This document shows, piece after piece, positions 1,209 through 11,528 of a stretch of DNA of 45,416 bases (positions within the stretch are counted from its first letter, which is position 1; the number at the start of each line of letters is the position of its first letter). The notes under the pieces were generated by a model. The model saw only the letters and a program-made list of their open reading frames with translations. It searched no databases and was not told where the DNA came from. This stretch comes from an uncultured Oscillospiraceae bacterium (GTDB lineage Bacteria; Bacillota; Clostridia; Oscillospirales; Oscillospiraceae). The position numbers and the translations under genes were made by a program. The stretch spans positions 1 to 45,416 of the forward strand of contig CANQBC010000017.1 in NCBI GenBank assembly GCA_947589225.1. The letters run 5' to 3'.

Positions 1209-2141
1209 TCATACCGCGATTTGTGTGGGGGTGTAGCTGACGGCTACACCCTTTCGCGTTTTCATGGTAATCTCCGCCGATTGGATCTTCCGGCGGTCAG
1301 GTACTTCAAACGCGCCGATGCAGTTGTAGTGAATGACGATCCGCTGGGTCTTGCCCATAGCGTCCTGCTCCGCATGGTACACGTCAATGTGGTCTATCAG
1401 TTCCGTTACCATGCGCTGGGTGATCGCCGTCACGTTGGTATAGCGCCGGACGGTTTCAAGGAATTGGTCAACGTCCATTTGGCGGCCCTCGGCCTTTTTC
1501 AGTTCCAGCCGCAGGGCCTTGATCCTCTTGGCGTTCTCCCCTTGCTCCTGCTCATACCGCTTGGACATTTTCGCAAAACGGGCATCGTCGATCTTGCCGG
1601 ACACGTTGTCCTCATAGAGCCGTTCAAAGAGCCGGTCAAGCTCCTTGTCGCGGGCCAGCAGCCCGTCCAGCTCCCGCTGTTTCCGGGCCCGGTCATTCTC
1701 CACCACCTTGGCCGAGCTGCCCATCATAGCCTTGATGAAGTCCCCTTCGTACTCGTTAGCGAAGCTGGCCAGCCGGTTCACCTCATAGAGCACCACCCGC
1801 TCCAGAAAGTCCAGCCGTATATAATGGGTCTTTGAGCACTTCCGCAGGCCGCAGTTATGATTTTGGCAACTGAAAAACTTTATATCGGGGTTGGTCTGGC
1901 TAAAGTGGAAGTTCAGATTGCCGCCGCACTCCGGGCATTTCAGCTTGCCGGAGAACACGCTGGGCTCCTGGGTGACGGTTGGCCGCTTGCGCCGGGTGCC
2001 CGCTTTCATGGACTGCACCTTTTCCCAGGTAGCCCGGTCTATGATAGTCTTGTGAACATTGAGGAAGATCGCCCGGTTTTCCGTTGGGTTCTCTATCCGC
2101 CGCTTCACCTTGTAAGACTTGGAGAACGATTTGAAGTTTAA
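1209..2141 (-). pseudogene. truncated large serine recombinase (C-terminal part)
   Basis: The remaining ~300 codons hold the recombinase zinc-ribbon region (CPECGGNL, then CQNHNCGLRKC) and a long coiled coil rich in E, K and R. This is the C-terminal half of Tn4451/TndX-type large serine recombinases. Recognisable sequence begins at LNFKSFSKSYKVKRR, where the family normally reads as part of a longer zinc/recombinase domain. Immediately upstream is an in-frame TAG (2142-2144), and no catalytic resolvase domain with its serine follows. The gene therefore lacks its active site. It is probably a relic of an insertion that used the same tRNA neighbourhood. Confidence 0.88.
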
Positions 2142-2242
2142 CTATTGGAACATTCTCTTTAATTGACTCTGACGTCAGAATAACGCCTAAATCACCGCGA
2201 AATTTCCAACAAAAGATTGGAAGGTGCGCCAAATGGCAGACG

Positions 2243-2271
2243 TTGACACCGGCAGACCGCTGTGCTAAAAT
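2243..2271 (+). promoter_or_regulatory. sigma-A promoter of the ATP-grasp operon
   Basis: TTGACA at 2243, a 17-bp spacer, and TAAAAT at 2266 preceded by TGC (extended -10). The predicted start is near 2278. A 12-bp palindrome TCTGACGTCAGA at 2168-2179, about 65 bp upstream, could be an operator; that is speculative. Confidence 0.8.
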
Positions 2272-2279
2272 CTTTATAT

Positions 2280-2315
2280 AGGCAAGGGAGCTTTTCCCCT
2301 GCCTTTTTCTTTTTT
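2280..2315 (+). terminator. terminator-like hairpin at the operon's 5' end
   Basis: AGGCAAGGG pairs with CCCCTGCCT (one A-C mismatch) around a 7-base loop, followed by TTTTTCTTTTTT. It falls between the predicted transcription start (about 2278) and the ATG at 2330. It is either an attenuator-like leader element or the end of an upstream transcript whose gene has been lost. Confidence 0.6.
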
Positions 2316-2329
2316 CAGGTGGTGGTCAT

Positions 2330-3643
2330 ATGCACGACATTTGTAAGGAGGCCGACGCCATCAACGAGCAGCTGGCCAGATACGGTGTAAAGTTTGGCAT
2401 TTACAAGAACGGTGAGTTTCGGGAACAGCTCTTCCCATTTGACGCGATCCCCCGCGTCATTGACGCGGAGGAGTTCGAGTATCTGGAAAAGGGCCTCAAG
2501 CAGAGGGTGACGGCGCTTAATTGCTTTCTCCGGGATATCTATACGGACAAGCGGATCGTCAAGGACGGGGTCATTCCTCCGGAGTTTGTTTACGCCTCCT
2601 CCGGGTATCTGCCCCAATGCGAGGGCGTGATGGCGCCAAAGGGCGTGGCAAGCCACATCTCCGGCATTGACCTGGTACAGGCCAGGGACGGAACCTGGTA
2701 CATCCTGGAGGACAATCTGCGGGTGCCCTCCGGGGCGTCGTACCCCCTCATCGCCCGCGGCCTGTGCCGGAAGGCTTCTCCCGAAACCTTTCGGGAACGG
2801 AAAATCGTGGATAACCGGGACTATGCCCAGCTGCTCCGGCGCACCATGGATCATGTAAACACCGGCGGGGACAATGTGATCCTGACGCCGGGGCGCTATA
2901 ACGCGGCTTTTTTTGAGCACTCGTACCTGGCGGAGCTGACGGATTCGGTGCTGGTCACCGGCAGCGATCTCTTTGTGGAGAACGATCTGCTGTACTACAC
3001 CGACATGGGTGGCGAGAAGCGCCGCGTCGGCGCGGTGTATCGCCGGATCTCCGACGAATACCTGGATCCCATGAGCTTTCTACCTGAGTCGGTGATCGGC
3101 GTCCCGCACATCTTTGACGTCTACAAAAAAGGGAATGTGGCCATCATCAACGCCCCCGGCAACGGAGTGGCGGACGACAAGGGGATCTACTACTTTGTGC
3201 CCAAAATGGTGAAGTATTATCTGGGCGAGGAGTGCATCACCCACAATGCCCCCACCTATCTGCCCTATTACCCGGAGGACATGAAATACGTCCTTGATAA
3301 GTTCGACGAGATCGTCATTAAGGACGTGGCCGAAGCCGGCGGCTACGGGGTGGTCTTTGGCAATAAGCTCACAAAGGAGCAAAAAGCGGATATGCTCGCG
3401 CTCATCAAGGCCCAGCCCCGGCGGTTCATCGCTCAGGATGTCATTGACTTCATTGATATCGACATCATGGAAAACGGGAAGCGGGTTCCCCGGAAGGCCG
3501 ACCTGCGGGCCTTCGTCCTCACAGGGGAGGACGTGACCGTATGGAAAAGCGGGCTCACGCGGTTTTCACGAAATCCCGATTCCTTCATCGTCAATTCATC
3601 TCAGGGAGGAGGCTTCAAAGACACATGGGTGCTATCACGGTAG
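2330..3643 (+). CDS. circularly permuted ATP-grasp protein
   Basis: 437 aa of the circularly permuted ATP-grasp family (formerly DUF404/407). Diagnostic stretches are the opening DAIPRVIDAEEF, GLKQRVTALNCFLRDIY, the ISGIDLVQARDGTWYILEDNLR region (about 110-131), and late nucleotide-binding parts such as DEIVIKDVAEAGGYGVVFG (about 326-345) and FIAQDVIDF. Known ATP-grasp enzymes join a carboxylate to an amine or thiol through an acylphosphate; these permuted versions are predicted amidoligases. The next four genes overlap or nearly abut it, the alpha-E gene by 19 bp. The substrate cannot be read from the sequence. Confidence 0.9.
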   Translation: MHDICKEADAINEQLARYGVKFGIYKNGEFREQLFPFDAIPRVIDAEEFEYLEKGLKQRVTALNCFLRDIYTDKRIVKDGVIPPEFVYASSGYLPQCEGVMAPKGVASHISGIDLVQARDGTWYILEDNLRVPSGASYPLIARGLCRKASPETFRERKIVDNRDYAQLLRRTMDHVNTGGDNVILTPGRYNAAFFEHSYLAELTDSVLVTGSDLFVENDLLYYTDMGGEKRRVGAVYRRISDEYLDPMSFLPESVIGVPHIFDVYKKGNVAIINAPGNGVADDKGIYYFVPKMVKYYLGEECITHNAPTYLPYYPEDMKYVLDKFDEIVIKDVAEAGGYGVVFGNKLTKEQKADMLALIKAQPRRFIAQDVIDFIDIDIMENGKRVPRKADLRAFVLTGEDVTVWKSGLTRFSRNPDSFIVNSSQGGGFKDTWVLSR

Positions 3644-4293
3644 ACAAAGCTGACCATCTCTACTGGCTGGGCCGGTATTCGGAGCGGGTGTACACCACAC
3701 TGAAGCTCTATTGCGACGGGTACGACAGTATGCTGGACGCGGACGAGGAATTCTATAAGGCGCTCTGCGTGATGCTGGACATTCCCAACATCTACACCTC
3801 CAGAGAGGATTTTCTCCAGCGTTACGGCTATGACAGGCAGGACTGCAACTCCATCATATCCAACCTCACCCGCGCCTATGACAACGCCATCGTCATGCGT
3901 GATGAGATCGGCACGGAGACGCTGGGGTACATACAGATGGCGGTGTACAGCATGGACGCGGCCGCCGCGTCCGACGCCCCCGTGATCCTGCTTCAAAAGG
4001 TGGTGGATCACCTTTTGGCCTTCTGGGGGTGCGTGGATGACCAGATAGACGGCTACTGCATCCGGGGTATCATGAAGTTCGGAAAGCGGGTGGAGCGGCT
4101 TGACCTATATCTCAGATTTCACATGGACCCCCACGAGGTCCGGCGAATCTACCACCGGATGATACCAAGGGCGCGGGAGAGTCAGCTCCCCATAAATCAG
4201 GCTTCCATGGACGCCCTTGAGGGGTATATGTCCGCCCCGGAGATCGACTACGACGGCGCGCTTGGCGCCCTGATGGGGATATTGAATGTCTGA
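3625..4293 (+). CDS. alpha-E domain protein (DUF403)
   Basis: 222 aa, all-helical alpha-E family. The N-terminus ADHLYWLGRYSERVYTTLKL is the family signature, and the C-terminus carries the usual late helices. I choose the ATG at 3625 because GGGAGGAGG lies at 3604-3612; an upstream in-frame ATG at 3541 is buried in the ATP-grasp gene with no site. The family almost always accompanies permuted ATP-grasp enzymes, sometimes fused to them, and is thought to be an accessory or substrate-recognition subunit. It overlaps the previous gene by 19 bp and the next by 8 bp, which suggests translational coupling. Confidence 0.9.
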   Translation: MGAITVDKADHLYWLGRYSERVYTTLKLYCDGYDSMLDADEEFYKALCVMLDIPNIYTSREDFLQRYGYDRQDCNSIISNLTRAYDNAIVMRDEIGTETLGYIQMAVYSMDAAAASDAPVILLQKVVDHLLAFWGCVDDQIDGYCIRGIMKFGKRVERLDLYLRFHMDPHEVRRIYHRMIPRARESQLPINQASMDALEGYMSAPEIDYDGALGALMGILNV

Positions 4294-5062
4294 GCTTGCC
4301 TTTGAGTATACGATGCGCTCGGTATTTGACCGGGAGATATTTGCCCACGCCTTCAGACTCATGCTCCTGCCGCCGAATACGGACAGGCAGAAGATCCTGA
4401 GCCTGGAGGCGGAGATCCTACCGAAAAGCTGGATATCCCAGGGCCGTGACGCCTTTGGAAACAGCTACCTCTACGGAACGGCGGCGGAGGGACACAGAAC
4501 CTTCACCGCCCGCATCCGCGGGCGGGTGCTGACGGGATCGGGAGATCCTGAGAGCGGCGCGGAACCGAAACTCTATTCAATACAAACCCCGGCAACGGCG
4601 CCGGGGCCTTGTGCTGTTGAGCTTTATAAGAGTCTGACCCCCCCTGATGGCGGCGACGCCCTGACACGGGCGGAGGTTCTGATGGCCGCTCTGCGTCGGC
4701 TTTTACGGTATGTACCCGGCGTCACGGACACCACCAGCACCTCGGAGGCCGCCCTCCGCCAGCGGTCAGGCGTCTGTCAGGACTTCGCCCAGTCCCTGCT
4801 CACCCTCTGCCGGATGGACGGCATACCGGCCCGCTATGTGGCGGGGATGGTCACCGGAGAGGGGCAGACCCACGCCTGGGCGGAGGTGTGGAGCGACGGC
4901 GGCTGGTACGGTCTGGATCCCACCTGGGGCGTGCGCGTGAACGGGGACTATATCAAGCTCTGCCACGGCCGGGACTGCCGGGACTGCCTCCTGAACCGGG
5001 GCGTCTACTCCGGCCCCGCCGTTGAAGATCAAACGATTACAGTGAGTGTGAAAAAAGTATGA
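4286..5062 (+). CDS. transglutaminase-like cysteine protease
   Basis: 258 aa. The transglutaminase-like core shows the full triad: Cys164 in RSGVCQDFA, His196 in GQTHAWAEVW and Asp211 in YGLDPTWG. The N-terminal ~130 residues form the beta-rich region seen in the bacterial transglutaminase family that travels with alpha-E and ATP-grasp genes. Enzymes of this fold in bacteria are usually peptidases or amidases, so it may cleave or transfer the amide product made upstream. There is no signal peptide, so it is cytoplasmic. ATGTCTGA links it to the alpha-E gene and ATGA to the next gene. An Arg/Cys-rich patch HGRDCRDCLLNRG lies near the C-terminus. Confidence 0.9.
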   Translation: MSELAFEYTMRSVFDREIFAHAFRLMLLPPNTDRQKILSLEAEILPKSWISQGRDAFGNSYLYGTAAEGHRTFTARIRGRVLTGSGDPESGAEPKLYSIQTPATAPGPCAVELYKSLTPPDGGDALTRAEVLMAALRRLLRYVPGVTDTTSTSEAALRQRSGVCQDFAQSLLTLCRMDGIPARYVAGMVTGEGQTHAWAEVWSDGGWYGLDPTWGVRVNGDYIKLCHGRDCRDCLLNRGVYSGPAVEDQTITVSVKKV

Positions 5063-5976
5063 TCAAGACTGTCACAAAGATCGACCTCCCCGTTGACGAG
5101 GAACTGTCCATCCTGAAAAACCGTATCTCCTCCGGCGAGGGGCCGCGCGTATCCGTGGTCACAGGAACCCACGGCGACGAGCTGGAGGGGCAGGCGGTGT
5201 GCTTTGAGGTAAACCGCCGCATCGAGGAGCACCCGGAATATTTACGCGGCACCGTGGACTTATACCCGGCGCTGAACCCCCTGGGGATCGACTCCATCAC
5301 ACGGGGCATCCCCGGCTTCGACCTGGACATGAACCGTATTTTCCCCGGCGCGGAGGACGGCGTCATGACCGAGTACATCGCCGCTAAGATCGTAAACGAC
5401 ATCCGGGGCAGTGATGTGTGCGTGGATATCCACGCCAGCAACATTTTTCTCCGGGAGATTCCCCAGATCCGCATCAACACCGTCACGGCGGACGCTCTGG
5501 TGCCCCTGGCCATGCACATGAACGTGGACTTTATCTGGGTTCACGCCGCGTCCACGGTTCTGGAGTCCACCCTGGCCTACGCCCTGAACGACCTGGGTAC
5601 TCCGTGTCTGGTGGCGGAGATGGGTGTGGGGATGCGCATAACGCCCGAGTACACCCGACAGCTCGCCGATGGGATATTCTGCCTTATGCACAAGCTTGGC
5701 GCGTGGACGGGGCCGGTCATCGTGCCAAGAGCGCCCATCGTCTCCGCCGACGGAAAGGTGAGCTTTATAAACGCCGGGGCCTCCGGAATATTCATGCCCC
5801 AGGTGGAGCACACGAGACGTGTCATGCCCGGGGATTGGATAGGGGATATCGTGGATCCGCTGACTGGGAAGGTGTCGGAGCGCGTCTATTCCCCCTGCGC
5901 GGGGATGGTGTTCACCCTCCGGGAGTACCCGGTGGTGGACGAGGGCTCGCTGATCGCCAGGATATTGGAGGTGTGA
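5059..5976 (+). CDS. succinylglutamate desuccinylase/aspartoacylase-family hydrolase
   Basis: 305 aa, M14-type zinc hydrolase of the AstE/AspA family, which cleaves N-acyl amide bonds of amino acids or related compounds. All landmarks are present: GTHGDELEG (His38, Glu41), NPLGIDSITR (Arg82), DMNRIFPG (Asn92, Arg93), DIHAS (His125, third zinc ligand) and VAEMGVG (Glu187, candidate catalytic acid). The C-terminal ~80 residues form the usual beta domain. The start overlaps the transglutaminase stop by ATGA. In an amidoligase operon it probably hydrolyses or recycles an amide product. It is an intact enzyme by sequence. Confidence 0.9.
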   Translation: MIKTVTKIDLPVDEELSILKNRISSGEGPRVSVVTGTHGDELEGQAVCFEVNRRIEEHPEYLRGTVDLYPALNPLGIDSITRGIPGFDLDMNRIFPGAEDGVMTEYIAAKIVNDIRGSDVCVDIHASNIFLREIPQIRINTVTADALVPLAMHMNVDFIWVHAASTVLESTLAYALNDLGTPCLVAEMGVGMRITPEYTRQLADGIFCLMHKLGAWTGPVIVPRAPIVSADGKVSFINAGASGIFMPQVEHTRRVMPGDWIGDIVDPLTGKVSERVYSPCAGMVFTLREYPVVDEGSLIARILEV

Positions 5977-5979
5977 GAG

Positions 5980-6909
5980 ATGGAGAAAAAGACGATATTT
6001 CAGCTCAAATCCCTCTACCGGGATCCTCTGAGGGTGACAGGCTTCACTTTTGGTTCCGGTGAAAGATCCGCCTGCGTGGTGGGGGCGCTCAGGGGTAACG
6101 AGGTCCAGCAGCTCTACACATGCTCACAGCTTGTGAAGGCGTTGAAGGAAATCGAGGCCGAGGGGAAGCTCGTCCCCGGCAAGTCCATTCTGGTAGTCCC
6201 CTGCGTCAACTCCGCCTCCATGAATATAAGGAAACGCTTCTGGCCCACGGACAACACGGATATAAACCGTATGTTCCCCGGCTACGATCTGGGAGAGACC
6301 ACCCAGCGCATTGCCGCCGGACTTTTTGAGGAGATCAAAGGCTACAAAAACGGCATCCAGTTTGCCAGCTTCTATGTCCCCGGCGTGTTTGTACCCCACG
6401 TTCGCATCATGAAGACGGGCTGGGAAAACGCGGAAAAGGCCAGAGAGTTCGGCCTGCCCTATATCCTCCTGCGCCAGCCCCGCCCATACGACACCACGAC
6501 CCTCAACTACAACTGGCAGGTCTGGGAGTCCGACGCCTTCTCCGTCTACGCCGGAACCACCGACACCATCGATCGCAAGGATGTGACCCTGGCTGTAAAC
6601 GCGGTCCTGAATTTTCTCCGCAAGGAGAACATCATCACCGGCTCTAAGCACATCCACGAGGGGTATATCTCCGAGGTTATTGACGAGGGGGATCTTCTGA
6701 GCGTCCAATCCCGTACCTCCGGCATTATTGACTCATTCCTGTCCCCCGGCGCCAATGTGGCGAGAGGGCAGACGCTGGCGCAGGTGCTGGATCCCTACGA
6801 CGGCTCTGTCCGCGAGCGGCTCACCGCCCCCATGGACGGCGTCATATTCTTCGCCCAGGAGGATCCGCTGACCTACGCCGGCTCCTGCGTATACAAGCTT
6901 ATACGGTAA
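5980..6909 (+). CDS. AstE/aspartoacylase-like protein lacking zinc ligands
   Basis: 309 aa, clearly a paralogue of the preceding hydrolase, with the family fold markers DTDINRMFPG (Asn96, Arg97) and the C-terminal beta domain. Key residues differ: the HGxE motif reads GALRGNE, so the first zinc His is Arg38 while Glu41 remains; DIHAS is replaced by GIQFAS, so the third ligand is Gln127; and the VAEMG-type glutamate is absent (LLRQPRPYD). The protein is otherwise full length and has a good ribosome binding site (GGAGG at about 5967), 3 bp after the previous stop. I infer a catalytically inactive regulatory or structural partner of the first enzyme. An altered activity cannot be excluded. Confidence 0.85.
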   Translation: MEKKTIFQLKSLYRDPLRVTGFTFGSGERSACVVGALRGNEVQQLYTCSQLVKALKEIEAEGKLVPGKSILVVPCVNSASMNIRKRFWPTDNTDINRMFPGYDLGETTQRIAAGLFEEIKGYKNGIQFASFYVPGVFVPHVRIMKTGWENAEKAREFGLPYILLRQPRPYDTTTLNYNWQVWESDAFSVYAGTTDTIDRKDVTLAVNAVLNFLRKENIITGSKHIHEGYISEVIDEGDLLSVQSRTSGIIDSFLSPGANVARGQTLAQVLDPYDGSVRERLTAPMDGVIFFAQEDPLTYAGSCVYKLIR

Positions 6910-7356
6910 TAATTGTTGAGCAAAGTACATCCCCACACGCCCCGAGCGCCCTATAACCCGGAAAACAGCCGAAAATGCCTGCGCCGCAAGGCCTTTTGAA
7001 AAACAGGATTTTTAACCACTTATGCCAAAAGCCCAACTGAGAAGCGCTTCTCAGTTGGGCTTTTTTGGCTAAGGAGGGGTAAATAACATTCACTGCGTTT
7101 ATAATCGTCCTTTAAGGAACTCGCCTTCGACGGTTTACTGCCTGATTGCGGAGGTGCGCCCTGCGTTTTCGCTTGAGTATTTTTTGCAATAATCAAATAC
7201 TAAAGAACGTTTCGGCACAAGATCGCTTTCGGGCGGGAGGCGCGTTGGAGAAGCCCCCGTCCCCGCTTTCGGACGTAAAGCTGTACCGGATGGCGCGGAA
7301 AGCCGAGACATACCTATCCGTACAGCCGCCCCACGCGCCGGCGCTGCGGCCGCCGG
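6910..7356. other. 447-bp intergenic region
   Basis: Between the convergent ATP-grasp and lipid operons. Apart from the palindromic terminator at 7027-7064 I see no gene; short frames here have no ribosome binding site and no recognisable product. Confidence 0.6.
7027..7066 (+). terminator. perfect 19-bp palindromic terminator
   Basis: The left arm at 7027-7045 (core GCCCAACTGAGAAGC) and its exact complement at 7046-7064 run into a T-tract. The A-run before the left arm makes it usable in both directions, which fits its place between convergent operons. Confidence 0.85.
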
Positions 7357-8064
7357 TCAGGGGCTGCTTTGTTCCTGTTCCCTGCGCGGGGCTTCTTTCT
7401 CTCGCGGTCTCTTTTTGCCATATGCGAATATGTATGCAACGAGGCAGACCGGCAGCGCCGCAAGAACGTCAAGCAGGGAGTGCTGTTTAATGAAAACCGT
7501 GGAAACGGAGATCAGGAACGCGGTCGCGCCAAAGGCGGCCCGCCACCATGGCGTTTTGAATCGCTCGCTGTCCCAGGCGGCGAACATGACCGCCACGGAG
7601 CCGATCACGTGAATAGACGGGCACACGTTCGTGTTGGTGTCAAACTGATAAAACCCTGCGATAAAGCGGGTCAGGATGTTGTCCCTCTCAAAGGTCAGAG
7701 GGCGGAGCTCCTGGCAGTTGGGAAAGAGTACGTAGATCAGCATGGTCAGGGAATAGGAGACGATAATGAATTTCATCAGCCCCTTGAAGGTCTCCGGCTC
7801 AAAGAGGAGCGTATAGAGGATCATCCCCACCAGAAAGATGAACCAGAAAAGGTACGGGATCAGGAAATACTCGCAAAAAGGAATGACATCGTCCAAGGCG
7901 CAATGGATCGGCGTATAGCTGCCCCGGATCCAAAATCTTTCCAACGTCATAAACGCCAGCCCGTAAAGCGGCCAAAAAATCAGATATTTCAGGTGCTCAA
8001 ACTCCGGCGTATTTAATTTGCTGAACCGGAACTTACGGTAATCTACCATATTTATTTTTTTCAT
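7357..8064 (-). CDS. PAP2-family membrane phosphatase
   Basis: 235 aa with about six membrane segments. Two PAP2 motifs are visible: CPSIHV (148-153, the PSGH-type histidine motif) and KQHSLLD (193-199, histidine and aspartate). The first KxxxxxxRP motif is not obvious, although ELRP (119-122) followed by TFER may correspond. The family removes phosphate from phosphatidic acid, phosphatidylglycerophosphate or prenyl phosphates, and some members transfer headgroups. It is the last gene of the lipid operon, 6 bp after the glycosyltransferase, which suggests that it supplies diacylglycerol or resolves a phospholipid intermediate. It ends in a charged Lys/Arg/Glu tail. Confidence 0.85.
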   Translation of the reverse strand: MKKINMVDYRKFRFSKLNTPEFEHLKYLIFWPLYGLAFMTLERFWIRGSYTPIHCALDDVIPFCEYFLIPYLFWFIFLVGMILYTLLFEPETFKGLMKFIIVSYSLTMLIYVLFPNCQELRPLTFERDNILTRFIAGFYQFDTNTNVCPSIHVIGSVAVMFAAWDSERFKTPWWRAAFGATAFLISVSTVFIKQHSLLDVLAALPVCLVAYIFAYGKKRPREKEAPRREQEQSSP

Positions 8065-8070
8065 GATCGA

Positions 8071-9186
8071 TCAATTTCCTTTACTAAGCTCGTCATAGAT
8101 CCTCTCAGCTCCGTTGGGCTGGTTATACTCCCGGAGCGCGCGCCGCATTTGCTCAAGCTCCCGGTCAGAGGACAAAAGCTGAATACATTTTTGGGCCAGA
8201 CGGGTAATGGAGGGGTCGGTAACAGCCGCCCCCAGGCCGGTAAAAAAGTCCATGTTGTATTTCTCGCAACCCGATACGGCGTCTACAAACGCCATTGGAA
8301 GCTCCTTCGCCGCCGCCTCCGTCACGCTGATCCCTCCGGGCTTTGTCAGATAGAGGTCGGCGGAATCCATATAGAGGGAGATATCATCCGTGTAGCCGAC
8401 GATATGTACCCGGTCGTTTTGCTCATATTGGCTTGTCAGCCTTTCCCGGAGCTTTTCATTTGTCCCGCAGATCGCGGTCACCTCCAGGTCGGCGGGAAAA
8501 TTGCCCGTGACCTGGCGCAGGAGCTCTGTGATAGGCCCGCAGCCCATACTGCCGCACATCATAAGAAGGTGCCTGTTGTTCGCGCCGATATGGAGCGTAT
8601 TCTTCGCCGCCTCCTTTTCGCGGCGGATCCAGAACGCCCTTCGGACGGGTATGCCCGTAACGACCGCGCGATCCCGAAATGCCGCGCTGCTTTGATAGAC
8701 GCCGCCCGGCGAGGCGCACGGAAGGAAATACCTGTAAAGGCCGCAGGACTCCGTACCGGGACAGCAGGTATAATCCGTGGCGACAAGGGCTGTCCGGACA
8801 GGCATGGGATCCCGCTCCAATAGCCGTGTCAGGGCAATGGCCGGAAAAACGTGGGTGCATATGACGGTGTCATATCCCCCCTTCAGAATAGCTTCGCGCA
8901 GGCGTCCCGCGCCGCTTGTCAGGATCCTGTACATGGGCGAACCCTTTTGAAGGAGGGCCGGGTGGCACTCATTAAAGTGGTAACCCCACCGGAAAAGGCC
9001 GGGGATGTGTAGATACATGAAGCTGTGGCCCCAAGACATAAGTCTCGAAAAAAGCGGAGATACAAAGGCAAGGGAATCACAGATATCGCACCTTACGCCC
9101 TTTTCCTCAAAAACTTCCCTGATGGCCTCGGCGCAGGAGTTATGACCTTGTCCCGTATTGCCGCTCAAGATGATCGCATTTTTCAT
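8071..9186 (-). CDS. MGDG synthase/UgtP-type diacylglycerol glycosyltransferase
   Basis: 371 aa from the ATG at 9186; an in-frame GTG at 9192 is the alternative. The N-terminal domain opens AIILSGNTGQGHNSCAEAI, the MGDG-synthase signature with the GxGH loop. The C-terminal GT-B domain has YLTKPGGISVTEAAAKELP, the sugar-nucleotide site of GT28 enzymes. These membrane-associated proteins add glucose or galactose to diacylglycerol and set membrane glycolipid levels. It lies between acyltransferase and phosphatase genes, and its 5' end overlaps the acyltransferase gene by about 47 bp. Assignment to GT28 is strong; the sugar is unknown. Confidence 0.9.
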   Translation of the reverse strand: MKNAIILSGNTGQGHNSCAEAIREVFEEKGVRCDICDSLAFVSPLFSRLMSWGHSFMYLHIPGLFRWGYHFNECHPALLQKGSPMYRILTSGAGRLREAILKGGYDTVICTHVFPAIALTRLLERDPMPVRTALVATDYTCCPGTESCGLYRYFLPCASPGGVYQSSAAFRDRAVVTGIPVRRAFWIRREKEAAKNTLHIGANNRHLLMMCGSMGCGPITELLRQVTGNFPADLEVTAICGTNEKLRERLTSQYEQNDRVHIVGYTDDISLYMDSADLYLTKPGGISVTEAAAKELPMAFVDAVSGCEKYNMDFFTGLGAAVTDPSITRLAQKCIQLLSSDRELEQMRRALREYNQPNGAERIYDELSKGN

Positions 9187-9670
9187 AAGCACTCTCTTTT
9201 TCCCGAACTCTTTGAAGGATCCTCATAAGCTTCGGTCTGTTGTATCGTTGAATGATGATATCCGGAAGATTTCCAAGCAGGTAAAGGACAGAGACGATCC
9301 AGCCCCAAACGCCTTTCCATATAAAGACGCATCCAAAGCCAAGGGCGCATAAAAGGCCGTGTATCCATTCGGCGACGCAGGTCTCCTGAACCATCAGCTC
9401 AAGCCCCGCCGCGGTGACGTCCTTCGGCATCTTTTTGGAGGGCATCAGCTTTGGGAGGATGACGCTCATATCCGGCACCTTTTCCTTCCACCAGCGGATG
9501 CCGAGCCGGTTATAAACGGCCCCCTGCTTTTCCCATCGAAACGGGCGGAAGGGAAAACGGTCGCCGTGGAACACGCTTTTGGGCATTATCCGCCCCAGCA
9601 TGAACCCGGACACCCCGATAAACACATAATATAGGATGCAATATAGAATACACTTTATCGGATCGCTCAT
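9140..9670 (-). CDS. CrtO-like glycosyl-carotenoid/glycolipid acyltransferase
   Basis: 176 aa with an N-terminal membrane segment (CILYCILYYVFIGVSGFMLG) and another pair near 105-140. Motifs WEKQGAVYNRLGIRWWKEKVPD and LLGNLPDIIIQRYNRPKL match the glycosyl-4,4'-diaponeurosporenoate acyltransferase family, whose founding member acylates a sugar on staphyloxanthin. No carotenoid genes are nearby, while a glycolipid synthase is directly downstream, so acylation of a glycolipid headgroup is the more likely role here (inference). ATG overlaps the upstream stop as ATGA, so translation is probably coupled. Confidence 0.8.
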   Translation of the reverse strand: MSDPIKCILYCILYYVFIGVSGFMLGRIMPKSVFHGDRFPFRPFRWEKQGAVYNRLGIRWWKEKVPDMSVILPKLMPSKKMPKDVTAAGLELMVQETCVAEWIHGLLCALGFGCVFIWKGVWGWIVSVLYLLGNLPDIIIQRYNRPKLMRILQRVREKESAYEKCDHLERQYGTRS

Positions 9671-10932
9671 TGCGTTACCTCAGATTTACTTGTGGTTTTC
9701 TGCGCTTTTTTTCGGTGTATATGCCTGTAAACAGCGACGGAGATGAGGGTGGCGGCGATCTCCAGAGCCACGGAAATGATAAACTCCGGCGAGGTGGGCC
9801 GGGTGATGCTCTTGCCGGTGATGGGGAGAAGCACCGCCGTGATAAGGAGCCCCAAAGCGCCTCCAAGAAGGTAGGGTACGTATTTAAGACCCGCCGCGCC
9901 CATGTAAATGCTGACCAGGTCGATGGGCAAGAGGTTGATGATGTGTACAAGAAACGAAAACATGAAGTCACCGCTGCTCTCAAAGTCTTTCATAAACGCC
10001 GCCTTGGGGTATTTCTCATGGATGTGTGTGAGCGCCCGCTTTCCCATAAGTCGCCCAAGGAAAAACGGGATAGTGAGCATGATGACGGTTCCAATAAGGT
10101 TGACAAGGATGGCGATGGGCAGGGGGAACAGGATACCGCTGGTAATGTAGAGGATACCCGAGTAAAGGACGATGCTGATGCTCTTGACGGCAAACAGCGC
10201 CAGCATCATAAGGATGGACAGGGCCATATTCTCCGGGGATCCGTTTATGATATTGTCCACCGTAAAGGAGTCGCGGTTAAAAAAGAACACGAGAATAATG
10301 GCTGCCCAGAGCGCGATGGACAGGCCCAGCGCGATCCTTGAGGCCCACTTGCTCTCCAGCAGCTTGTGTGCGACGCCGTGCAGCGCCTTCATGTAAAAAC
10401 GCACATAGAGGATGAAAGCAGCGAGGATGGCAAAAAAGCAAAGGCAGATGAGCACATCCGCGGCCGCCGCCGGTATATTCGGGAACAATATCAGGAGCAG
10501 CATGCTCCCCTCAAGCAGGGCCGTGGCCGCCTTGCCGTACCAGCGGGCGCTGTTCACAGTGTCCGTGTAGTGGAGCGTCAAACACCCCAAGGTGAGCATG
10601 ACGATCTCCTTTGCCGCGAACACGAAAAGCACCGGCCGGAGCTTCGTATATCGAAAGCACAGGCAGAGCATAACGGCGCCCTGGGTCAGCTTGTCGGCCA
10701 CCGGGTCAAGGAGCTTCCCAAGGTCGGACACCATGTTGAAGCGCCTGGCCACAAACCCGTCCAGAATGTCCGTTGCACCCGACGCCAAAACCAGAACGGC
10801 CGCCAAGGCGTAGTCTTTCCTGAAAGCATACACATAGACAATGGCCGGAATAAGGAGGAGCCGGACAAGGCTCATTGCGTTGGGGATGGTAAGAACGTCT
10901 TTTTTCGTAAGTCTCTTAGTTATCTTGTTCAT
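9667..10932 (-). CDS. CDP-alcohol phosphatidyltransferase fused to a VTT/DedA-type domain
   Basis: 421 aa from the ATG at 10932, which has GGAG 7 bases upstream; an in-frame start at 10947 precedes that site. Residues 15-190 are a PgsA-like CDP-alcohol phosphotransferase with every residue of the signature D(x)2DG(x)2AR(x)8G(x)3D(x)3D (Asp55 to Asp80). Residues about 235-405 form a TVP38/TMEM64-like VTT membrane domain with short hydrophobic re-entrant stretches (ILYITSGILFPLPIAIL, GALGLLITAVLLPITG). VTT/DedA proteins are lipid scramblase-like transporters. The fusion suggests that phospholipid synthesis and translocation are linked. It is the first gene of the lipid operon and begins 4 bp after the stop of the dnaK relic. 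Confidence 0.87.
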   Translation of the reverse strand: MNKITKRLTKKDVLTIPNAMSLVRLLLIPAIVYVYAFRKDYALAAVLVLASGATDILDGFVARRFNMVSDLGKLLDPVADKLTQGAVMLCLCFRYTKLRPVLFVFAAKEIVMLTLGCLTLHYTDTVNSARWYGKAATALLEGSMLLLILFPNIPAAAADVLICLCFFAILAAFILYVRFYMKALHGVAHKLLESKWASRIALGLSIALWAAIILVFFFNRDSFTVDNIINGSPENMALSILMMLALFAVKSISIVLYSGILYITSGILFPLPIAILVNLIGTVIMLTIPFFLGRLMGKRALTHIHEKYPKAAFMKDFESSGDFMFSFLVHIINLLPIDLVSIYMGAAGLKYVPYLLGGALGLLITAVLLPITGKSITRPTSPEFIISVALEIAATLISVAVYRHIHRKKAQKTTSKSEVTQ

Positions 10933-10936
10933 GATC

Positions 10937-11528
10937 TCACTCCACATAAGCCGCGCATCGAGCCGCCGTATCGCGCAGACGGGCCGCGGCGTCCTTTATG
11001 TGGACAACATCGCTCTCCCCCGTCCCGGCTGGCTTCTCCCCCGCCGGGAGCTTTTCAAGACTGGAGATCTCTACTTTCAACATCTTTCTATCCTCCCTGG
11101 GGAGCTTCTTTTTTGTCTTTTCAAGTATCTGCCGGACCTCCGCCGGCGTACGGTTAGCCTCGGCGTTGGCTCCAAAAGGGCTCAGGCGGACACCGTCCCG
11201 GGCGGCATAACGCCGGGAATCGCGGATGGCGGCGTCGATCCCCCCGCCGGTCTGGTAAGGCGCGGCGGTGGAAAATACCCTCCCATAGTGACCGGAAGGA
11301 TGGTGCGCTCCGTCAGATGGCGCGTGAGCCCGTTAATGCTCGTCCGTCACCACCTCGTCAAAGTCGTCGCCGCCCCGGTGGCAAGCGCCTCAATGACGCC
11401 TCCGCCGATCTCTATAATGGACACACGAAGGTTCGCCGCCCAAGTCGTACGCCATGACTTTCCGGGATTCCCCGTCGTCCAGCCCGTATGCCGGCTCGAC
11501 GCTGACGGGCTCGCACTCCACAGTGTCC
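10937..11528 (-). pseudogene. decayed dnaK (Hsp70) copy
   Basis: Read on the minus strand across three frames, this is recognisable DnaK: YGLDDGESRKVMAYDLGG, then VSIIEIGGGVIEALATG, then GGDDFDEVVTDE, then LTERTILPVTMGG, then VFSTAAPYQTGGG, then a helical lid-like stretch (RQILEKTKKKLPREDRKM) to a TGA at 10937. The order matches the ATPase phosphate-2 loop through the start of the substrate domain, then the lid. Frameshifts separate the blocks, the ATPase domain is mostly missing and most of the substrate-binding beta domain is deleted. The last open block (about 11270-10937) is uninterrupted and ends 4 bp before the next gene, so a truncated peptide might still be made. Confidence 0.8.

Follow-up and report, generated by a model that had tools for sequence, protein, structure and literature searches.

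A five-gene cassette coupling an ATP-grasp, alpha-E and transglutaminase-like triad to a predicted AstE-type enzyme-pseudoenzyme pair

ATP-grasp ligases make amides via an acyl phosphate, and enzymes of the AstE fold break the amides of N-acyl amino acids; DoeB and AstE, for instance, remove the acyl group from an N-acylated amino acid. The locus described here brings genes for both kinds of protein together. It lies near the left end of a 45,416-nucleotide stretch of DNA (contig CANQBC010000017.1 of assembly GCA_947589225.1, in full length called the window) from an uncultured Oscillospiraceae bacterium of the gut, and consists of genes for a circularly permuted ATP-grasp ligase, an alpha-E protein and a transglutaminase-like protein (together the triad), followed by genes for two AstE-like proteins, AstE1 and AstE2 (together the pair). 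The triad is known from the Anbu operon, which Iyer and colleagues in 2009 are said, in papers citing them, to have defined as circularly permuted ATP-grasp, alpha-E, transglutaminase-like protein and Anbu. In the portions available of later work, the triad is proposed to act with Anbu in peptide synthesis or tagging (PMC6376114, PMC5666114, PMC3597751). For a Yersinia relative in the Anbu operon, release of phosphate from ATP has been reported, while the Y. bercovieri study did not detect interactions between the operon proteins or peptidase activity of Anbu, and the available text reports no confirmed physiological role for the triad (PMC6376114). The first three genes of the cassette are the same, in the same order, with the expected families and conserved residues, so their preliminary description as a known, predicted amide-forming module stands. 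The cassette differs from the Anbu operon in lacking the N-terminal nucleophile (Ntn) hydrolase Anbu, an AstE-type enzyme and a predicted pseudoenzyme occupying the hydrolase position, and in having a short form of alpha-E.

Several other systems resemble parts of the cassette. By sequence, AstE1 has DoeB/EutE (N-acetyl-diaminobutyrate deacetylase) among its nearest relatives of solved structure (PDB 2qj8, 3cdx, 6twl (DoeB)), and by fold so does the AstE2 model (Foldseek matches to DoeB 6twm and 3cdx, E about 1e-22, template modelling (TM) score about 0.78). AstE1 nevertheless scores far below the DoeB equivalog cut-off (TIGR02994, 402.7 bits; AstE1 53.9 and AstE2 43.2 bits), and the cassette pairs it with a predicted pseudoenzyme and an ATP-grasp system. 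Neither protein reaches the AstE equivalog of arginine catabolism (TIGR03242, cut-off 305.65 bits), where AstE2 scores 14.6 bits and AstE1 is unmatched. In the cyanophycin system CphA is an ATP-grasp enzyme, and we know of no pseudoenzyme partner for the hydrolase CphZ. The ATP-grasp proteins of the RimK and Rlo systems belong to a different family from that of the cassette, and no RimK-type Pfam match was found in the five cassette proteins. CphZ hydrolyses the beta-Asp-Arg dipeptide in cyanophycin breakdown, according to the part available of PMC12661447. The AstE2 model has the same overall fold as CphZ (8eip/8ein, TM 0.74-0.78), which offers a precedent for such a hydrolase downstream of an amide-forming enzyme, but identity is 13-15% and the five genes include no cyanophycin synthase. 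RimK/RimB and RloABC also place an ATP-grasp gene beside a hydrolase gene, as the cassette does, and RloB adds an inactive transglutaminase domain; their hydrolases are aspartic, retropepsin-like peptidases instead of an AstE enzyme, and the Rlo proteases carry signal peptides, whereas none was seen by eye in any of the five cassette N-termini (PMC12239564, as far as its available text goes). PMC4000134 deals with a further metallopeptidase-like family and with an ATP-grasp gene that lies in a sugar cluster. In the available portions of the open-access literature searched (including PMC7701253, PMC8407117 and PMC10318531), no report links an AstE pair to alpha-E or to the circularly permuted ATP-grasp, although Iyer 2009 may already do so. 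The triad itself was already known, and the cassette is best read as a form of it without Anbu that has a zinc amidohydrolase, paired with a pseudoenzyme, as its hydrolase.

The five genes are collinear on the + strand, as follows.

2330..3643, + strand, ATP-grasp ligase, circularly permuted, 437 amino acids (PF14403/PF04174; PDB 3n6x; conserved residues)
3625..4293, + strand, alpha-E protein, short form, all helical, 222 amino acids (PF04168; conserved residues; AlphaFold2 model)
4286..5062, + strand, transglutaminase-like protein with a Cys164-His196-Asp211 triad and a fast-evolving N-terminal half, 258 amino acids (PF01841 and PF08379)
5059..5976, + strand, AstE1, AstE/AspA-type zinc amidohydrolase with H38, E41, H125 and E187 intact, 305 amino acids (PF24827)
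5980..6909, + strand, AstE2, predicted pseudoenzyme of the AstE1 fold with Arg in place of the first zinc His and neither the second His nor the catalytic Glu, 309 amino acids (PF24827; residues; model; Foldseek)

ATP-grasp and alpha-E overlap by 19 bp, alpha-E and the transglutaminase-like gene by 8 bp, and the latter and AstE1 by 4 bp (ATGA), with a gap of 3 bp before AstE2. These junctions are as the preliminary description had placed them, and all five proteins score above the Pfam gathering cut-offs (PF14403 446, PF04168 73, PF01841 70, and PF24827 71 for AstE1 and 41 bits for AstE2). A mechanical list of open reading frames has alpha-E begin at 3541. The later start at 3625 gains support from the 19-nucleotide overlap it produces, a length that also gives the median and both quartiles in a set of 105 complete collinear loci (some redundant between samples). 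In the same loci the AstE1/AstE2 junction has a median of -4 nucleotides, with an overlap in 70.

The cassette recurs far beyond this genome. Contigs of named genomes were scanned with the ATP-grasp alignment alone and the best 80 of at least 591 relatives were taken, of which 69 loci were judged; the 11 others include L053, where the AstE pair is on the opposite strand. All five genes stand in order at 57 of the 69, though one of these (L064) has only a partial AstE1. By NCBI phylum the 57 comprise 46 Bacillota, 9 Bacteroidota, one Thermoplasmatota and one Chloroflexota; the last two may be binning errors, and they group among Clostridia in the ATP-grasp tree. Commensal isolates with the cassette include Butyrivibrio sp. 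X503 (L023) and Ruminococcus flavefaciens FD-1 (L088). By the preliminary description, its reading would fail if the pair adjoined the triad in this genome only. The pair does so in many genomes of several phyla, and the five coupled genes are inherited together as a unit. Pairwise protein distances correlate at 0.69-0.89 among the five genes (102 five-protein loci, thinned to 97 by ATP-grasp identity), against a maximum of 0.17 in 200 permutations per pair. In the ATP-grasp tree, a quick one with long branches flagged, a single branch in each case separates the rows of Bacteroidota, of Campylobacterota and of Actinomycetota from all others, and the association of triad and pair therefore looks old within this ATP-grasp subfamily, with losses such as that in three Actinomycetota rows.

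Samples drawn by taxonomy give a similar picture. The ATP-grasp gene is uncommon, being found in 9 of 398 genomes of a phylum sample and in 13 of 391 genomes of a class sample, one of these with a fragment. In the phylum sample, five of the eight ATP-grasp genomes other than the window's have the AstE pair downstream of the transglutaminase-like gene. In five of the eight, alpha-E was missed by tblastn and is full-length by Pfam, in one case fused to the transglutaminase-like protein. The pair is also present beside the ATP-grasp genes of L016 and L017, a distant lineage whose alpha-E is full-length. In the class sample an AstE2 orthologue occurs in 15 genomes, with five further weak matches (E 1e-6 to 5e-4). 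All 12 genomes with a full ATP-grasp gene carry the orthologue (Fisher p 2e-20, the genomes not being independent), although in one of them the unit lies in two parts at the ends of different contigs (L108, L109). The other three AstE2 genomes hold the pair without an ATP-grasp above the family cut-off and without alpha-E. A search with PF00227, the proteasome fold to which Anbu belongs, found no match in the window's own genome. Of 15 genomes with triad and pair, none carries a match inside the operon; five carry one outside it, in one case below the cut-off.

The two AstE proteins differ sharply in their predicted active sites. By their roles in the AstE/aspartoacylase family, H38, E41, H125 and E187 of AstE1 correspond to the zinc ligands and the catalytic Glu; all 117 triad-linked rows have these residues together with N92/R93. 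AstE1 thus shows the HxxE motif, the distant His and the catalytic Glu sought in a PF24827 enzyme. Of the 168 AstE2 rows, not one has a His at either aligned zinc column or a Glu at the catalytic column. The first-His column is Arg in 163 of the 168 and the Glu column is Tyr in 161, the alignment being less certain at the latter. AstE2 is well conserved all the same (mean column identity 51% over 50 rows) and keeps the N-R pair in most rows; its model has a mean predicted local distance difference test (pLDDT) score of 90, dropping to 58-66 in the stretch with the N-R loop (residues 81-110). By these residues AstE2 is a conserved, predicted pseudoenzyme, and because the set is intact in AstE1 and lost in AstE2 the pair is read as one predicted active amidohydrolase with one pseudoenzyme. 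The earlier label of an intact AstE/aspartoacylase enzyme thus holds for AstE1 and fails for its paralogue, and the claim of two acyl-amide hydrolase-type proteins has to be dropped. The second AstE of the distant loci L016 and L017 keeps the zinc ligands and has lost the catalytic Glu, by sequence a less advanced state than that of AstE2; it scored nearer AstE1 and was excluded from the AstE2 counts. Open reading frames with an internal stop were also excluded, eight in the AstE residue comparison and four in another set.

A sample of 378 Lachnospiraceae genomes (family inferred) allows copies of the pair with and without the triad to be compared. AstE2 occurs here in 85 genomes at 97 places, with AstE1 directly before it in 94; the triad adjoins the pair at 45 places, and at eight the stretch is too short to judge. 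Twelve genomes hold two copies, and in 11 of them exactly one copy is triad-linked; in the remaining genome (G1120) one of the two copies runs into the end of its contig immediately upstream of the transglutaminase-like gene. Triad-linked and standalone copies form nearly separate branches, with four label changes over 159 labelled rows of the AstE1 tree (shuffled mean 37.1) and seven over 158 rows of the AstE2 tree (shuffled mean 38.0). Twelve loci were listed as unsuitable, through truncated contigs or for other reasons, and those of them without a triad were omitted from the trees (10 rows per tree) and from the comparison of active sites. Whereas all 117 triad-linked rows have an intact AstE1 site, 18 of the 42 standalone rows depart from it: eight have lost the first zinc His, one has Asp for E41 and nine differ only at R93. 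Because the site is strictly kept with the triad and often changed without it, the reaction of AstE1 appears to be tied to that of the triad, and this is the best evidence here for such a tie.

Some of the triad-free places deserve separate mention. Two are atypical, L172, where AstE2 has no AstE1 match, and L204, where an ATP-grasp fragment runs directly into an AstE2 fragment (7084-8699), as would result from a deletion within the cassette or from a fault in the assembly. L098 carries a gene for a class III aminotransferase and, upstream, apparent genes of an amino-acid ABC transporter. Two UNVERIFIED records labelled as faecal phages (L209 and L210; MT835471.1 and MT835514.1) hold an AstE1-AstE2 pair with no triad match in the fetched stretch, and may be mislabelled bacterial contigs.

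The triad proteins have the residues expected of their families. In the ATP-grasp protein, for which PDB 3n6x is a structural relative, E127, D128, N129, R131, K331 and G337 are conserved in 131 or 132 of 132 rows, the exceptions being gaps. Alpha-E is a clear family member (72.9 bits against a PF04168 cut-off of 20.8) in which W14, R17, R21 and E157 are invariant over 131 rows and the ER motif is present (R21 in 131, E20 in 125 of 131). Its match ends at position 164 of the 294 in the profile, hence the short form, while in five more distant loci alpha-E matches to position 293 or 294. The AlphaFold2 model is all-helical (pLDDT 93), and Foldseek found no significant match to it in the PDB. 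The transglutaminase-like protein belongs by its catalytic residues to the transglutaminase superfamily (Cys in 126, His in 125 and Asp in 124 of 126 rows). Its ratio of non-synonymous to synonymous substitution rates (dN/dS) is 0.34 and 0.41 against two loci of the same genus, while the rest of the cassette lies at 0.036-0.091, so that by this measure it evolves about 4 to 11 times faster. The changes relative to one of these loci (L206) are concentrated in the N-terminal half, which is also the least conserved part of the 126-row alignment. In a distant triad without the AstE pair (L013:6564-8462, - strand) alpha-E and the transglutaminase are fused into one protein of 633 amino acids, and this fusion supports the two acting together. 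In two Sulfurimonas contigs (L096, L097) a second, divergent ATP-grasp/transglutaminase locus adjoins the first on the opposite strand, and that of L096 includes a 1133-amino-acid protein with transglutaminase similarity. None of the five cassette proteins matches a family in the PADLOC-DB anti-phage models.

Three further features frame the genes.

2243..2271, + strand, sigma-70-type promoter, TTGACA-17-TAAAAT, matching the consensus at 11 of 12 bases and with the second hexamer preceded by TG (consensus scan)
2280..2316, + strand, short GC hairpin with a T-run between promoter and start codon (folding z-score only -0.70, no better than shuffles)
7024..7069, + strand, strong hairpin with a T-run, read as the operon terminator (-32.2 kcal/mol, z -6.7)

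The other three promoter-like sites in the region reach 9 of 12 bases each, and shuffles average 2.2 sites. Both hexamers of the promoter recur in two same-genus cassettes (L206, L207), in which the 2280..2316 hairpin is identical as well; this hairpin may be a 5' stabiliser or an attenuator. Some hairpin with a T-run lies within 110 nucleotides before the ATP-grasp start in 61 of 134 loci, a count made without other genes as control. A consensus terminator scan gave 12 sites (4.4 expected), several inside genes, and the 7024-7069 hairpin is not among them; a different hairpin, read by eye, occupies the same downstream place in L206, the nearer of the two loci. Promoter, coupling and terminator suggest that the cassette is a single transcription unit, and they lend no support to separate transcription of the genes, which the preliminary description had named as an outcome that would count against it.

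Within its own genus the cassette is sporadic, the ATP-grasp gene being found in 3 of 25 sampled genomes, the window's included, and missing from the other 22. The two other ATP-grasp proteins are 97% identical to the window's. When the first 20,000 bases of the window were compared with the stretches fetched from these two genomes (L206, L207), the DNA in common, about 90% identical, ran from 2173 to 7028 or 6908, and no match was found outside this block. Since only that block is shared, the cassette is a discrete block set in different surroundings within the genus. The flanks of L206 are repeated many times in the genus. In the window, 1083-1142 and 1209-2108 (- strand) hold a sequence like a tRNA 3' end (ending in CCA, by eye) and then an apparent truncated serine recombinase, with PF13408 and PF14287 above and PF07508 just below the cut-off; ARAGORN found no whole tRNA in the window. 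The arrangement resembles the decayed remains of an integrated element immediately before the operon. On its right-hand side the operon is followed by a run of lipid-related genes:

7357-10947, - strand, PAP2 family protein, monogalactosyldiacylglycerol (MGDG)/diglucosyl-diacylglycerol-synthase-like glycosyltransferase, CrtO-like acyltransferase and CDP-alcohol-phosphatidyltransferase-type protein

What the cassette does has to be read from its protein families. The explanation preferred here, to which we would give roughly an even chance, is that it is a self-contained unit for making and cleaving an amide or isopeptide, with the AstE pair as a zinc amidohydrolase and its non-catalytic partner. 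That the unit exists, and that AstE2 has the sequence of a pseudoenzyme, is shown by the data above, while the chemistry, its direction and an AstE1-AstE2 heteromer are inferred. The unit is probably cytoplasmic, judging from its N-termini. In a first step the ATP-grasp enzyme would activate a carboxylate as an acyl phosphate and join it to an amine, with alpha-E as its constant helical partner and perhaps as a holder of substrate or target. The Cys-His-Asp protein would then move or trim the acyl group on a target that differs between hosts, and such a target would fit the fast-changing N-terminal half. AstE1, of the DoeB/AstE/CphZ fold, would hydrolyse the resulting N-acyl amino acid or isodipeptide-type amide, and AstE2, presumably co-translated with it, would give the substrate pocket of AstE1 its shape or would regulate the enzyme, the simplest arrangement being a heteromer. 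In this scheme the pair would occupy the position of the Ntn-hydrolase Anbu in the classic operon.

Several observations weigh against this explanation. In the Lachnospiraceae sample the triad is absent, with room to see it, at 44 of the 97 places. Conversely, the pair is missing from three of the eight other ATP-grasp genomes of the phylum sample and from seven of the 69 judged loci among the best 80 relatives (six with the triad only, one with ATP-grasp and alpha-E only), among them all three judged from Actinomycetota. With the pair often free of the triad and some triads free of the pair, neither half strictly needs the other. Five of the 69 loci, all Campylobacterota, hold four genes without the transglutaminase-like one, which is therefore not essential to the scheme. 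Standalone AstE1 keeps the second His and the catalytic Glu in 42 of 42 rows, and its changed state needs about eight changes on the tree, not 18; its decay appears partial, and a changed function is possible. In one AstE2 row (L191) a Glu lies within two columns of the lost catalytic Glu. Finally, three triad-only genomes also have no Anbu-like gene in the operon, so that the replacement of Anbu by the AstE pair is a reading of position.

Other explanations were weighed on the same evidence. One is a one-way biosynthesis, in which an N-acylated intermediate serves the ligase side as its starting point and AstE1, with AstE2, strips off the protecting acyl group as the last step and so releases the product. 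This fits the family knowledge that the DoeB/AstE relatives of AstE1 deacylate N-acylated amino acids, and full retention of the AstE1 site across the rows only with the triad is as expected of a required step. No gene family beyond the cassette occurs as a neighbour in more than 15 of 101 loci examined, however, hence no conserved acylating partner is seen, and the pair stands alone in the three class-sample genomes mentioned above; we consider this explanation unlikely, if worth keeping in mind. Protein tagging and untagging, with the triad attaching a short peptide or amino-acid tag that the AstE pair removes, is more doubtful still. To our knowledge no tag or target is known, which counts against it, and the substrates of the characterised AstE-fold enzymes discussed here are small molecules, either N-acyl amino acids or dipeptides. 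In its favour, the half of the transglutaminase-like protein that could meet a target evolves fastest, and the available Anbu literature states the hypothesis for the same three genes (PMC6376114, PMC5666114), though the failure to detect operon-protein interactions or Anbu peptidase activity in Y. bercovieri speaks against it (PMC6376114). Very improbable is mere neighbourhood by descent, an old housekeeping AstE pair beside the triad in some lineages, since its support, a purL-like gene on the same strand downstream of standalone pairs (21 of 45 within 0.3 kb and 27 of 45 within 3.7 kb, one Pfam-checked) and near two triad loci (L121 at 2.6 kb, L122 at 1.8 kb downstream), is set against an association in three phyla with strict order and coupling, full retention of the residues only with the triad, a near-separate branch, and the sharing of just the cassette block by same-genus genomes with other surroundings.

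The make-and-cleave explanation can be carried further, into territory we regard as speculative and on balance improbable. The cassette might then be a previously undescribed write-and-erase system for amides, spread over Clostridia, Bacteroidales and, without the transglutaminase-like gene, Campylobacterota, and might form an Anbu-independent branch of peptide tagging. Its eraser would be an obligate enzyme-pseudoenzyme pair, in which AstE2 would have exchanged its zinc site for a fixed Arg/Tyr site. With this site it would hold the ATP-grasp product, a tag, by its acyl or carboxylate end, and cleavage by AstE1 would thereby be confined to that tag.

An Anbu-free cassette with a zinc amidohydrolase of an assayable fold provides a practical handle on the triad, in that the substrate of the hydrolase would reveal the product of the ligase. 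With an enzyme-pseudoenzyme pair, and with triad-linked and standalone copies side by side in the same genomes (11 of the 12 with two copies), the question becomes testable in commensal isolates.

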